The notes beneath the pieces were generated by a model, which saw nothing but the letters and a program-made list of their open reading frames with translations, did not search any database and was not told the DNA's origin. Below are positions 8,113 through 15,308 of a stretch of DNA of 36,786 nucleotides, piece after piece. Within the stretch, counting starts at the first letter, position 1. Every line of letters starts with the position of its first letter. This stretch comes from a virus. The position numbers and the translations under genes are program-made. Location of the stretch: positions 1 to 36,786 of the IMG/VR virus record IMGVR_UViG_3300044699_000103. One strand, 5' to 3'.

Positions 8113-8549
8113 CTATTTCGTAGCTTGCGCTTCAGCCACCTTGGTCTGTTCGAGCCGTCTGTCAGCGACGCGCGATCTCGGCGATCTCGCCTCGATGAGG
8201 TCACGCCTCCTCTGTCGGCGCCTCGGCGTTACGGCGAGAACGCGACGCATCATCGCCAGTTGCTGCACGGTGGCCTCGAGTGCGCCTCGATCGCCGCGGT
8301 CAGAGTCGAGTTGACCAGGTGTGGATGACGTCCAGTTTGCCGTTGGTTATCACCGCGGTCGCGCGACTCTTTCTGTTGGACTCCAGCAGCAGCCTCGCCG
8401 CCTCGGCGGCTCTGGGCGGCTACCGCGTCCTGGCGGGCGTAGTCCTCGATCTTCTCGGCGCGGCGCTGCCGGTTGTTGAGATGGGACAGGAACAGCGGCC
8501 CGGCCACGGTGCCGAAGACGACGATCAGCGCGACCAGGACCGCGTTCAC
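8113..8549 (-). CDS. Phage membrane protein with coiled coil, several frameshifts
   Basis: GTG 8549 starts a membrane helix (VLVALIVVFGTVAGPLFLSHL) followed by NNRQRRAEKIEDYARQDAVA. The next parts lie in successive frames: AEAARLLLESNRKS, then NGKLDVIHT, LVNSTLTAAIEAH, LEATVQQLAMM, and an Arg-rich end closing ATK at 8113. This order matches a common actinophage protein encoded next to the endolysin, which has an N-terminal helix and a long coiled coil. At least three single-base shifts are needed, two of which shorten C runs, so sequence error is likely. Function is unknown; a role in lysis control is inferred from location. Confidence 0.7.
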
Positions 8550-8552
8550 GGT

Positions 8553-9949
8553 CTAGGCATCCGAGTCGGCGCGGACCTGCGGCGCGCCGCCCTCGCCGAG
8601 GTCGGCGACGGCATCGCGCATCTCGGCGCGGGTGAGTTCGCCCTCCCCGCGGATCGCGGCGATGATCGGCGCCGCGTCGATGTTCCCGTCGCCCGACGAC
8701 AGGGCTTTGATCGCCTGCGCCAGCAGGTTCGGCTCCACGATCTCCGGCTTGCCGAGCACGGCCGGAATCTGATCGGGTCGCGCATGGCGACGATCGCCTC
8801 GAGGCGGTAGTTCATGACGTGCTGGATGTAGAGCTCGTCGTCGCTGGCCATGTCTTGTCCTCCTGGTGTCCATTGGCCGAAGTCGGCGACCATGGCCCGG
8901 TTGAGATCCAGGTCGCCACCGGCGAGGACGATGCCGTTGTGGTACTGCTGCACGTGCGCACCGGGATGCCACCGGCCGCCGGACCAGGCGTAGGTCTGCC
9001 AGGCCCACCGGATGAGCGAGGTGCTGAGCAGGTGCTCGATGGTGTCGTAGCCGCCGTAGGCGCCGACCTGTTCGAGCGGCAGGACCGAACCGATGCCCTG
9101 GAAGTAGGCGCTGACCGGGGCGTAGTCGCCGGCCGGGTCGTAGTCGACGGAGAAGTAGATCGGCCGCCCGGCGGGCATGCCGCACGCGGCGGCCTGGCGC
9201 ACGGCCTCGGCCGCGTACTTGCGGCCGGCGTCGTAGCCGGCCTTGGCGTCGCCGGCGCGCCATTCCCAGTTCGCGACCACCGCGATACCGGCCGCGGCCA
9301 GCTGTTCCGCCTCGGCCAGGGTGAGGTTCTTGCCGGTCCGGTCGTAGGACAGGTAGCGGGACGCGAAGCGTTTCCCGGCCGCGTACAGCCCGGCCGGATC
9401 GGGCCGGGACCAGGCGTAGTCGACGCCCTCGACGGGCACCGGCACGGCGTAGTAGGAGTAGCCCCGTTCGGCGATCCACACCGCCAGCGCCTTGGTGGTG
9501 ACCCAGTACTGCGCCGGGCGCACCACGTCGGCCACGTACGCCTCGTCACCGCCGGCCCGGTAGCCGGTGACCGCCACATAGTGCCCGCCGTTGTAGGCGA
9601 AACTGCCACCCGACAGCGGCCGGACCGTGCCGACCACGTTGGCGACCATCGCGAACCCGGCGTCGATGCCGGCGACGAGCTCGGCCCTGAGCTGGGCCAC
9701 CTGGGCGTCGGTGACGGTAGCGCCGATGTAGCGGTCGGCGTAGGTGCCCGCCCCCAGGATCTGGTTGAGGGCCTGCACCACGTCGGCGGAGGAGTTGGTG
9801 CCGAACGTCGTCGTGCCCAGCGCCTTCGCCAGTTCGGTTTCGCTGCGCTCGATGCCCCGGCACCGCAGTGCGATCTGCACCGACGCGGGACCGCAGAAGT
9901 AGCCGGTCTCCTGCCCGTCGAAGGTGTACTCCAGCGGGTTGGTGGGCAC
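8553..9949 (-). CDS. Endolysin: C39-like peptidase plus DUF1906 domain, one frameshift
   Basis: GTG 9949 follows GAGGAGGTGCC. Residues about 5-165 form a C39-type cysteine peptidase: catalytic Cys in GYFCGPASVQIAL, His in GGHYVAVTGY and Asp in VADVV. Residues about 170-385 match DUF1906, a glycoside-hydrolase-like barrel (VDYAWSRPDPAGL, YLSYDRTGKNL, VVANWEW, PIYFSVDYD, VGAYGGYDTI, WQTYAW). A C-terminal tail of about 85 residues (DDELYIQHVMNYRLEAIVAM, then EIVEPNLLAQAIKALSSGDG) lies across a one-base shift near 8783 in a C run and ends at 8553. The enzyme should cleave peptide and possibly glycan bonds of the host wall. AGGAGGA before an internal ATG (8850) means a short separate product is possible. 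Confidence 0.88.
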
Positions 9950-9958
9950 GGCACCTCC

Positions 9959-11294
9959 TCAGGTCAACTGGGCGGTGAGCGCGTTGACGAGCAGCCCCTC
10001 CAGCGCGCCGGTCTGCGGGTAGTAGCGGAAGTGGCCCATCAGGCCGTAGACGCCCGCGGCCCCACCGGCGGCGTCGGGTGCGTCGGTGTCCCAGCCGCCC
10101 TCGTAGGAGCCGTTTGTGTCGTACGGCGGGAAGCACGTGTCGGCCGGCACGTAGCACGGGACCTCGTTGGCGTAGCCACCGATGAACAGGCCGTTGGTTC
10201 CGTTGAACCGGTTGCGGAACAGCACCCCGTAGCCGCTGAGCAGTTCGCCCGCGACGAACGCGAGCCGCAGCTTCGGCGACCCGCTCAGCTTCCACACCTG
10301 CGTCGGCAGGGTGATCGAGGCGGCCCAGCCCGAACCGGCGTCAATCAGTTCGATCATGCTCTGGGCGTGACGCACCACCCACGGGGTCGAACTGGCCAAC
10401 CGTGTCACATAGGCGGCCCGCAGCGTGGCCCAGCCGGCCGGGGTGGTCGGCAGCAGCAGCGGCGCGGTGACGCTCGACAGCGACGTCAGCAGCGGCCCGT
10501 TCACGCCCGACCGGGGGCGCTGGCCTTCTGCACGACCGCCTGGCCGAGGGAGGCGCCGTGGCGGTTGCGTTCGGCCCAGCTGCGCGGCCATGCCGGGTCC
10601 TGGTCGCCGGCCGGACCGGGCAGGAACACGGCCACACAGCCGGGGATGGCCGCCTCGATGACCGCGGCGGCGGCGGACGGGAAGTCGCCGTCCCACATGG
10701 TCTGTTCGCCGGCGGTTACGGGATGCGTGCCGTAGCTGAACAGCACCACGGCGGGCAGGCCGTCAGCGCGGCGGGCGGTGAGGATCGGCACATCGGTTTC
10801 GATGTAGGTAGCTCCGCCGCGGTTGAAGCTCCAGTTCTGGGTCGCGAACTGGTAGTCGAGCGTGACCGGAGTACGGGACGGCGGCGAGGGCGGCGGTGGT
10901 CGTCGTCACGATGTCGTCGGCGAGGCGGGTCCAGTACTCGGTGCAGGCCGTCAGGTCGGTGGCGGCGTGCAGGATGTACGCGTCGGGTGTGTTCAGCGCC
11001 ATCGGAGCGTTGTGGGTGTGGGTGGCGAACAGGACGATGTCCGACGACGCCCACCCGGCCAGGGCCAGCAGCCGCGGCCGCAGCGCCTGATGCCAGGCCG
11101 GCGGAATGAAACCCACGTCGAGGCTGACGAGCAGGTTGGGCGTGCCGTCGTCCCACAGCACCACCGCCGTGGCATGCAGCGGCGAGTAGGTGCCGGTGGC
11201 GCGTCGTGGGGTCATGGCGCAGCCGTAGCCGCCCATCTCCGTCATGACGGTCGGGGGTGATGTCGACCCGGGCGCTACTCACGGCGAAGGCCAC
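9959..11294 (-). CDS. Neutral/alkaline ceramidase-like hydrolase, at least three frameshifts
   Basis: GTG 11294 follows TAGGAG. The reconstructed protein of about 445 residues matches the neutral ceramidase family throughout. In order: SSARVDITPD; EMGGYGCAM; LHATAVVLWDDG; LLVSLDVGFI; the zinc motif ATHTHNAP; NWSFNRGGATYIETD; VVLFSYGTHPV (second zinc His); GDFPSAAAAVIEAAIPG; FLPGPAGDQDP; then, after another shift, AFVAGELLSGYG and GYANEVPCYVPADTCFPPYD with SYEGGW. Known members use one zinc to hydrolyse the N-acyl bond of ceramide. Here GDQDP stands where true ceramidases have GDVSPN, so the catalytic Ser is replaced and the substrate may differ. It lies between tail genes and endolysin, which suggests a virion or lysis enzyme acting on an N-acylated envelope compound. 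Confidence 0.8.
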
Positions 11295-11303
11295 GGCTCG
11301 CTC

Positions 11304-11805
11304 CTACTCGATTCGGTTGAGCTCGAGAAAGGACCCGGCCTTGACGATCGTGTCGGAGACGTTGGCGGTGTTCTGCGCCCACTGGGTCTGCAACGTGCCC
11401 GCGGTCCCACCCATGATCACCAACCCCCAGGCGTCCATCACGAGGTCCGCGGCTGTTCCGGCCAGGCCGACCACACCGCCCGAGGCGGCCGCGCCGTAGG
11501 TGAGGGTCGGGCCGATGGCGTAGCAGAGGAATGACCAGGCCGCAGCGTCGCGCCGGCCGGGAAGGTGAAGCCGTACTTGAACGCGGCCGCGACCTGGCTG
11601 AGGTACAGCATGTGCAGGTGGGCCAGGTAGACGACGTTGGCCTCGACCGGGACGAGCAGCACATCGTCGTTCTGCAGCACCGACGAATTGTTGACCGTCT
11701 CGTTGGCCGTCTTCCGCGCGGTGTCGGCCGCACCTCGGTGATCGCCGCGCCGAGGGTGAGCGCGCGCAGCTTCGCCCCGGCCAGGGGGAGCGACGTCAGC
11801 GCCAT
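11304..11805 (-). CDS. Small beta-rich tail/fibre-type protein, two frameshifts
   Basis: ATG 11805 starts LTSLPLAGAKLRALTLG. After a shift near 11730 the protein continues ETVNNSSVLQNDDVLLVPVE, ANVVYLAHLHMLYLS and FTFPAGAT; after another near 11530 it runs CYAIGPTLTYGAAASGG, LVMDAWGLVIMGGTAGTL, NVSDTIVKAGSFLELNRIE and stops at 11304. The alternating hydrophobic pattern and the TLQNDD-like core resemble small virion proteins encoded downstream of minor tail genes in actinophages. About 167 residues. Exact role is unknown; a tip or fibre component is inferred from its place. Confidence 0.65.
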
Positions 11806-11817
11806 CGGGCGGTCCCG

Positions 11818-14800
11818 CTACATAGACAGCACAAGGTCGTCCTCCACCTGCATGGCCACGCCGGCGGCGTGTGACCTTGGTGACCCCGTTGACCGACCGG
11901 ATCACGGTCAACGTCTGGAAGCCGCCGGCGAACGCCACGGCCGCGCCGCCGCTGATCGCGGCCGCGCCGCCAGTGACGGCGAACGACCCGTCGGCCACCG
12001 CGGTCGCGTTGGTCTGGATGACGTAGTCGACGACCAGGCCCTGGTCGTTGCCGGTGACGGTGAACGCGTCGACCGCCTCGGTGAACCCGGACACCGTCGC
12101 GACCGACGTCCAGTCGTCGTCCTTGCCGCCGAGCAGCAGCACCACACAGCCGTCGACCGGGCAGTGGTCGCGGCGCACCGCCAGACCCGGGTAGGCAATG
12201 TTCTGGGCTGAGGCGTTCGTCAGCGACCCGGACTCGACAACCGCGTCGTTCAGGTCGGCCAGGGTGATGGGCATGTTGCGCAGGCCGAACGTGACCGCCG
12301 AGACGGTGTCGCCGGCCGCTCCGCCGGTCGGGGTGACGGTCGGGTTGGACTCCGTTCCGCTGTGGACTTTGACGAACAGTTGCATCGGCGACGTCGCCGA
12401 CCAGCCGTTGATGGCGATGCGGGTGTAGCCGGCTGGTGTGGTGAGGGTGCCGTTGGAGGCGTCGCGGATGCGGGCCAGCACACAGATCCAGTCGCTGGCG
12501 GTGTTGCCCGCGTACAGGGCCGGGGTGACGGCGGCGTTGTCGGCGCTGGACATCGTCCCGGCGGCGACGAAAGTCGCCGCGGTGGTGGCGATGCTGGCCA
12601 CCTCGATCAGTTCGCTGCCGAGGCGCACCCGAAGGTCCGGGTCGAAGTCGTCGGCGGTGGTGGTCCACCGGTACACGTTGGGGTCGAACGCGACGGACGT
12701 GGCGGTGCTGGTGAGGGCGGCCCGGATCGCGGGGTCGTCGTCGTCGAGCCGGCCAACATACTCGCCCGCGTCGCTGGTGGGTTGGGCGAGAACGAACACC
12801 TTGTTCGGCGCGTATGGGCTCAGGTTGGCGGTGACCGTCCACTGCTCGGCCGACAGAATCTCGGTGTAGCCCTCGAGGATTGCCTGAATGTCGTCGGGCG
12901 GGTACTGCGGGGGCGGGTGGAGGATGTCGACGCGGTTTGAACAGGCGGGTGGCCATCCATTGCTGGGCGAGCACGGGCGCGGCGCGCATGTTCCAGGTGA
13001 CGGACGGAAAGCGCATGCCGCGCACGGTGCCGAGGTTGACCCGCCACCCGGCCAGGTCGCGGAGGAACCTGTCGTCGAAGGTGTTGACGGTGACCTGCTC
13101 GTGGTAGCGGCCCTCGACGGCAATCGACGTCTCGTCGGTGACGCGGGCCGACGATCCGCCGGTGCGGGACACCTCGACGTCGTTGACGATGTCCTGGTCG
13201 TCCAGGGCCGGTTCGAACCCGGGAGCGACGTGCCCAGCCGATATGTTCAGGGTGAGCGCGGCGTCGATGTTCTCCCGGTCGTCGCGGGCAGGGAACCACA
13301 GCAGCCCCGTTGCGCCGGCAAACTCCCCGGAATCGTTGATGACGCAGCCTTCGACGGTTTCGGCCTCGCGGATCTGGTTCATGAATGTGTCGACGCCCTG
13401 CGGCCCCATGGTCAGGTCGAGGTTGTCGGACGAGTCCAGTCATAGGGAACGTTCTGGTCGACGCAGAGCCGCTGGAACCGCGACCACGGCCAGTCGCCCG
13501 AGTTCCCGCTAATCACAGCGCCAGTCGCCGTGGCCCCGTCCGCACCCGGATCGACGTGGACCGCCAGGTGCCCGAACGCGATCCCAGCAAGCCCAGCAGC
13601 AGCCGGGACCCGCAACCAGGTGACCCCGCCAGCTGTCCGGCCAGCCACCGAGTTGGTGATTCCGAAACCGCCCGTGGCCTTCGTGGCCAGCAGGACGAAG
13701 TCGACGGCGGTGCCGTTCTGGGTGGCGGTGAGGGTGTAGAAGTGGCTGACGCCGTAGAACGTCGCCTCGTCGATGGCCACCGTGCTGCTGAAGATGGACG
13801 TGCCGCCGCTGTCGTAGATCTGGAGGAACAGCGCGCTGGGGGCGCCGGGGATGATGCCGACCGTCCACCCGGCGGCCGTCCCACTGGTAAAGGTGTCCAG
13901 CAGAGTCGTGGCGGCCGCCGGTTCGGCGGGCACTCTGGCGGCGAACATGACCGTCCACGTGCCGGTGTCGACATAGGACGGAACGGTGGCGCGGACGGTC
14001 GTGGTTGCCGAGAACTGGGCCAGCGGCGCAGCGCCGACAATCGAGTCGTCCGACCCGAAGGTGACGTTCGTGACCGCCGCGGGATTGGCGCCAGGTACGG
14101 CGCTTGCCGCGGATGTCGCATCAGACCCGTCCTCGAACGGCCAGTGCGCGACCGGTGCCGAATACCCAGCATTGCTCTGCATCCGCTGAATCGCGGTCCA
14201 GGCCGCAGAGTGCAGCGGCTCGTCGCGCCGCTGCAACCTGCGGAGCCGGCCCTGCGCGACGATGTCCACAACGGACCAGTTGGCCGTGTCCCACCGCAGC
14301 CGCGCCGACGCCAGGAACGCCGTGCCCCGGTGGTAGCCGTTCGTCGCGCCGACGCCGAAGCCCGTCAACCGCACCCGGAACGGCAGGTTGCGCACCATGT
14401 ACGGCGTGTAGATCCCCGTCGGGGCGGTGAACTCACCGTTGAGATTCAGCAGCGAGAAAGCTATACCGGACGGGTCGGCGATGCCGGTGCGGTTAGCGCG
14501 ACCGTGGGTGATCGTGATCGGCGTTTCGCTGTCGTGAACGTAGCGGGAGAAGTCCGTCCATACCCACGTCGACGAGTCGGTGTCCGGGTCGGCGCCGAGC
14601 GCGGCCTCGACGACGACCTTTCCGGCGGGGGGTCCACCGTCGTACGGCGTGAAGTACGGGTTGAGCGTGATCAGCAGTCCAGCACCGGCGGTCTGGTTCT
14701 GTGAAGCAGTGGCGAGGTAGGACGAAAAACCGATGTAGTCACCGAGCCACGTCTGGTCGGCGACCACGCCAGCGATGTCGGTGCCGGCGCCGGCGTTGGT

Positions 14801-15308
14801 GGATGTATCGAGGCGTTCGGTCGGGTTGGAGCTGACTCCGGTCACCGTCCATGTCGTTGCCACTCCCGACGCGGCGCGCACGGCGGCCGCCACGGCGATA
14901 GCCGTGCCACCACGGACGAGATAGTCGTCGACAGTGAGTTGGGTCGACGCGGTCAGCGTGGTGTCGACGCCATAGTCGCCGACCAGTGAGGTCACCGGCG
15001 TCGTCGGGTCGACGCCGCTGTATGCGCCGACCCAGCCCCAGTTGCGCTCCGAGGTGCCGAGCGTCCACGTCCACGACGCGCCCTCGGAGGCAGCCAGTTT
15101 GCGCCAGCAGGTCAACTTGACGGTGCCGGCGTTGGTATTCACCACCAGGGTCCAGCCGGACGGCGGCGAGTGGCCAGGTACGTTCGTGGACGCGATGAAC
15201 GCGATCAGCTGGTCGCCGTTGACCAGACCGGCCGGGGCCGGCACCACCACGGACGTGCCGGCGGTGCCGTTCGTCACCGAGGCGGACGAACGGAACGCAG
15301 GTGGCCAT
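11818..15308 (-). CDS. Long minor tail protein with LamG-like domain, about four frameshifts
   Basis: ATG 15308 starts directly after the tape measure stop (about 1,160 residues). The N-terminal 200 residues are a beta domain (GLVNGDQLIAFIAS, WTWTLGTSERNWGW). Residues about 230-350 resemble phage distal-tail domains (GKVVVEAALGADPDTDSSTW, DPSGIAFSLLNLNGEF). Residues about 380-560 form a LamG/concanavalin-like domain (VAHWPFEDGSD; TGTWTVMFAARVPAE; HFYTLTATQNGTAVDFVLLA). The rest carries LDLTMGPQGVDTFMNQ and a late beta region (VTPTGGAAGDTVSAVTF) ending VAMQVEDDLVLSM. Shifts lie near 15283, 13430, 12930 and 11860; sequence on both sides is conserved in style. It probably forms the distal tail/adsorption structure. 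Confidence 0.8.

Follow-up and report, generated by a model that had tools for sequence, protein, structure and literature searches.

A predicted ceramidase-fold zinc hydrolase encoded between the tail and endolysin genes of an actinobacterial virus

The neutral ceramidases (PF04734/PF17048, EC 3.5.1.23), with published structures for the P. aeruginosa enzyme (2ZWS) and human ASAH2 (4WGK), share a catalytic domain with a His/His/Glu/Tyr site, which we take to be the zinc ligands of these structures. They carry a Ser within the amidase motif GDVSPN, a C-terminal Ig-like domain and a signal peptide. Roles in the human enzyme have been described for His196, Arg257, Tyr579, Tyr591 and Ser354, of which Ser354 reportedly only positions the catalytic Arg (PMC6952831). 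Ceramidases are also encoded by giant viruses (Terrestrivirus and Mimivirus, the latter cited in PMC5383658), which infect eukaryotes. Among the tailed phages an accessory envelope enzyme near the endolysin is known from the mycobacteriophages, namely LysB, an esterase which cleaves mycolyl-arabinogalactan (PMC7246905).

The DNA analysed here, referred to as the window, spans 36,786 bases and comes from IMG/VR as a virus record. Its minus strand encodes portal, protease, major head and tail proteins. Phages of Gordonia, Mycobacterium and Arthrobacter have the nearest head genes; homologues of the tail protein are found in Streptomyces phages. The record represents a soil virus of actinobacteria; naming a host genus was dropped because the head and tail relatives disagree. 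The gene under study (Table 1) has a Shine-Dalgarno-like AGGAG just 5' of its GTG and is legible piecewise, as the frame shifts near 11253/11251, at 10879-10859 and at 10504/10501.

Table 1. Positions of the gene, its neighbours, the active-site motifs and two intact orthologues (window coordinates unless a contig is named)
Feature	Position	Strand	Remarks
Ceramidase-fold zinc hydrolase gene (predicted), ~445 aa	11294-9959	(-)	GTG start 11294, TGA stop 9959; three frameshifts
Large tail protein gene, relative of Streptomyces phage Vondra gp18	11876..15298	(-)	frameshifted
Small tail/fibre protein gene, directly upstream	11304..11805	(-)	9-base gap; frameshifted; 42-68% identical to L003:6697-7200
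Endolysin gene, C39 peptidase and Rv2525c/DUF1906 glycoside-hydrolase-like domain	8546..9949	(-)	3' part apparently out of frame
THTHNAP	11003..11023	(-)	zinc-ligand His (human His194) and catalytic His (human His196)
SFNRGG	10813..10830	(-)	catalytic Arg (human Arg257)
YGTHPV	10717..10734	(-)	second zinc-ligand His (human His303)
GPAGDQDP	10594..10617	(-)	in place of amidase motif GDVSPN, Ser to Asp
VAGELLSG	10232..10255	(-)	zinc-ligand Glu (human Glu540)
GGYANEVPCY	10151..10180	(-)	zinc-ligand Tyr (human Tyr579) at end
NGSYEGGWD	10088..10114	(-)	active-site Tyr (human Tyr591)
Intact orthologue	L003:7197-8546		
Intact orthologue	L002:7179-8540		

Seven other IMG/VR contigs of uncultured viruses (L002, L003, L031, L032, L033, L034 and L036) harbour intact relatives, which makes eight contigs together with the window. 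Against the proteins of L003, L031, L032 and L033 the window pieces show 53-57% identity (more than 400 columns aligned), and against those of L002, L034 and L036 44-46%. Between the phage copies dN/dS ranges from 0.09 to 0.34 (0.03-0.11 between cellular copies), and judged from these ratios the phage gene is under purifying selection. A comparison with an intact relative shows the same kind of frameshifts in the upstream fibre gene (read in three frames) and the large tail gene of the window. Because the neighbouring tail genes are broken alike and seven phage relatives are intact, the frameshifts point to sequence errors of the whole record and the gene appears to be real and conserved. The assumption made from the letters alone, that the frameshifts are errors, is thus borne out by the intact orthologues and their dN/dS, and for the same reasons we rejected a dead gene. 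Across the record (1-36786) frameshifts are found in the tape measure, tail, fibre and endolysin genes, so that annotation taken from it is unreliable.

All motifs named in the original prediction (DITP, GGYG, LLVSLDVG, THTH, YGTHPV, GDQDP, GGYANEVPCY and YEGG) could be found in the predicted order. This series is more than chance, because the N-terminal piece alone matches PF04734 (E 5.9e-6), because the closest phage relatives are conserved to the extent given above, and because a search with the family profile retrieves 2ZWS (5.3e-36) and 4WGK (1.1e-30) with no other credible match. These profile matches span the N-terminal part and the Glu/Tyr region; a single-sequence search of the PDB missed the ceramidase relation, which was found by the profile only. 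For the structure we used an AlphaFold model of the intact L003 orthologue (pLDDT 87.7, pTM 0.91). With this model Foldseek finds 2ZWS at E 5.8e-25, and VIA aligns it to 2ZWS with Z 33.2 over 387 residues and to 4WGK with Z 30.7, the next unrelated structure having Z 3.6. Profile and model comparison therefore agree with the fold first proposed, and the protein is predicted to be a catalytic domain of the neutral-ceramidase fold. The model aligns to residues 4-484 of 2ZWS, i.e. the protein stops after the catalytic domain.

However, the phage protein differs from genuine neutral ceramidases in several respects. It is only 17-19% identical to them, it is phage-encoded, the Ser of GDVSPN (Ser354) is replaced by Asp or Asn, and both the C-terminal Ig-like domain and the signal peptide are missing. 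PF17048 is absent from the Pfam scan; a separate scan of the records likewise gave no match, though the control gave none either. The PF04734 scores of 24.3 and 17.1 bits lie below the gathering cut-off of 32.1. We do not file the protein as a ceramidase because it has neither the Ser motif nor the C-terminal domain and stays below this cut-off.

In the profile alignment human His194, His196, Arg257, His303, Glu540, Tyr579 and Tyr591 correspond to His94, His96, Arg160, His193, Glu355, Tyr386 and Tyr402 of the L003 protein. The window pieces contain all seven of these zinc and catalytic residues, and among 31 sequences only one exception to them occurs, so that the predicted zinc site is recovered by alignment in the window pieces as well as in the orthologues. 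At the Ser position the same 31 sequences have Asp or Asn in 29 cases, Lys in one and Ser in one; the phage and Micrococcales members read GDQDP or GDQNP. Loss of the Ser as a sign of a degenerate enzyme was rejected, as Asp or Asn is found here in almost every bacterial or archaeal relative and the other seven residues are kept. Either of these two residues could keep the Arg in place as Ser does. That the protein is a dead or non-catalytic remnant, with a fold that now serves for binding or a gene in decay, would fit the frameshifts of the window record and the replaced Ser, but it is very improbable in view of the seven intact phage orthologues, the invariant metal and catalytic residues, the purifying selection and the neighbouring genes, which are frameshifted too. 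Zinc-dependent amidase chemistry is well supported by the residues, and the phage protein is probably active. The zinc, with His, His, Glu and Tyr as its ligands, would activate a water molecule, and with the assistance of His, Arg and the second Tyr an N-acyl (amide) bond would be hydrolysed.

The predicted position between tail genes and a C39/DUF1906 endolysin was confirmed and recurs. In five phages (window, L002, L003, L032 and L034) the order tail/fibre gene, ceramidase-fold gene, lysis gene is found on one strand, although the types of fibre vary and so do the endolysins (C39/DUF1906, DUF1906, Amidase_2 and one unassigned). In the window the endolysin start lies 9 bases past the stop of the ceramidase-fold gene and has a Shine-Dalgarno site, so that there is a ribosome-binding site on either side of the gene. 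In L002 a small HNH-like gene, as read from the sequence, stands between the ceramidase-fold gene and the endolysin gene. In L034, a prophage-like contig with an integrase, the gene that separates the ceramidase-fold gene from that of the DUF1906 endolysin is phospholipase-D-like, likewise as read from the sequence (L034:9353-9895). A C1q-like neighbour was set aside, its model (pLDDT 48) being too poor. In Streptomyces phages with a related tail protein the slot is empty (Vondra) or contains a beta-helix protein (Dubu); therefore the slot is an accessory one.

The expectation that related phages carry the gene at the same locus holds for these five phages but not for L031 and L033, where it lies in a tRNA array away from the lysis genes; therefore proximity to lysis genes is not universal. 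The arrays of these large phages (L031:3545-16936 with 33 genes and L033:3216-17202 with 35) include one tRNA with a CUA (amber) anticodon, called tRNA-Pyl, and adjoin a Ro60/TROVE gene. On the 113-kb contig L036 the neighbour is an RlaP-type gene of the RNA-repair polymerase beta family (L036:6824-7951).

Read most simply, the slot suggests an envelope enzyme used on entry or exit. We tentatively favour, at a little less than an even chance, an accessory metal-dependent amidase with a neutral-ceramidase catalytic domain, which would be produced late, together with the tail and lysis proteins, and would have the host envelope as its target. It may be associated with the virion and trim an N-acyl decoration during adsorption, or be a helper released with the endolysin. 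Against this explanation, neither a signal peptide nor a membrane segment is present to explain access to the envelope, and the tRNA arrays of L031 and L033 and the rarity of the gene (eight contigs) allow a niche or moron role. As moron cargo the protein would be a cytoplasmic amidase which alters host metabolism or surface in lysogeny or infection and is merely parked beside the lysis genes. The integrase-bearing contig L034, the tRNA arrays, the rare and patchy distribution and the close Arthrobacter cellular copies, which also have no signal peptide, would agree with such cargo. We nevertheless consider it somewhat unlikely, since five divergent phages have the gene in one slot, co-directional with the tail and lysis genes and in several of them with very short gaps.

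The original prediction compared the gene with LysB. The likeness is that of an accessory envelope enzyme near the endolysin, as an idea only, whereas the fold (in LysB that of an alpha/beta-hydrolase, a cutinase-like esterase) and the class of bond differ. Nor do the head and tail relatives, which disagree, establish a mycolate-bearing host, and the equivalence is not supported. Because of the different fold we do not file the protein as LysB. The cutinase family PF01083 has no match in the window or the relatives, and a lone weak tblastn match in L003 (6e-4) could not be reproduced and would require a reading frame that is implausible.

Cellular relatives with 40-52% identity to the window pieces were found on chromosomes of Micrococcales (Arthrobacter, Paenarthrobacter, Cryobacterium), on an A. 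alpinus plasmid and in one Actinomycetales MAG. The Micrococcales and A. alpinus proteins share the GDQ(D/N)P motif and a similar length with the phage protein but are cellular. Close members are rare, being present in one of 396 Actinomycetota genomes (the seed itself) and in five of 396 genomes of the order. In the tree the phage and Micrococcales chromosomal proteins form one clade (100/99), within which the window groups with L003, L032, L031 and L033 (100/99). A direction of transfer between phages and Micrococcales was considered and dropped, as the tree gives no resolution.

The neighbourhoods of the relatives bear on the substrate. On four alphaproteobacterial plasmids (L070-L073) a Ser-less ceramidase-like gene is part of a conserved amino-sugar operon with LacI, NagB/6PGL-like, SIS, amidohydrolase and sugar ABC transporter genes, and in one case an AGE epimerase gene. 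The encoded proteins, named "neutral/alkaline non-lysosomal ceramidase N-terminal domain" proteins, have all seven active-site residues, Asn in place of Ser and no signal peptide. Judging from this operon, amino sugars may be the substrates of many proteins that bear the ceramidase name. In the Arthrobacter and Paenarthrobacter loci with enough flank, a GH25 lysozyme gene with FG-GAP repeats adjoins, and Tad pilus genes adjoin the Arthrobacter copies. In the chromosomal loci L007-L017 the surroundings are fixed (GH25-FG-GAP, chitobiase-domain/FG-GAP and Tad pilus genes), and in several of them the block is inverted around the gene. On the A. alpinus plasmid the protein carries a Tat-like signal, and a PL8 polysaccharide lyase is encoded nearby. 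These three independent contexts point to glycans but are no proof for the phage protein, and the operon proteins, which belong to a catabolic setting, are just ~25% identical to the window protein, which counts against our explanation.

As some relatives adjoin lysozyme genes and others belong to amino-sugar operons, our best guess is an N-acyl-glycan amidase directed at the host envelope, and an N-acyl amino sugar or glycan would be a more likely substrate than ceramide. Alternatively, the enzyme could cleave an N-acyl lipid of the host (ceramide-like, ornithine-lipid-like or another lipoamide) during entry or release. The fold and active site are indeed those of a lipid amidase, and the gene adjoins the endolysin gene. 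We regard a lipid substrate as unlikely, though, as the protein lacks three features of true ceramidases (Ser motif, C-terminal domain and secretion signal) and relatives occur in sugar operons; moreover, ceramide synthesis is not known from most actinobacteria.

Searches of INPHARED (50,697 GenBank phages) at the DNA and protein level gave no match, PHROGs and NCBIfam gave no family match, and a neutral-ceramidase-fold enzyme in tailed phages was not found in the open-access literature searched. In the viral structure library the only match to the L003 model is a giant-virus ceramidase, which has the fold in common but only 13% identity and is no tail/lysis gene of a tailed phage. The fold is therefore known, and what is new, according to INPHARED, PHROGs, the viral structure library (the giant virus apart) and these papers, is its setting in tailed phages.

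It is possible, though clearly short of an even chance, that these genes represent an unreported class of phage envelope enzymes, ceramidase-fold zinc amidases in the tail-fibre/endolysin slot which remove N-acyl groups from surface amino sugars (or lipids) of actinobacteria on entry or exit. If true, this would set apart, within the ceramidase superfamily, a branch that lacks the Ser and acts on substrates other than ceramide. If the protein is active on the host surface, hydrolysis of N-acyl amides by a ceramidase fold would be a new chemistry in the tail and lysis toolbox. It would also help to assign a function to the large bacterial and archaeal family named ceramidase without the ceramidase motif, several members of which are encoded in sugar operons.
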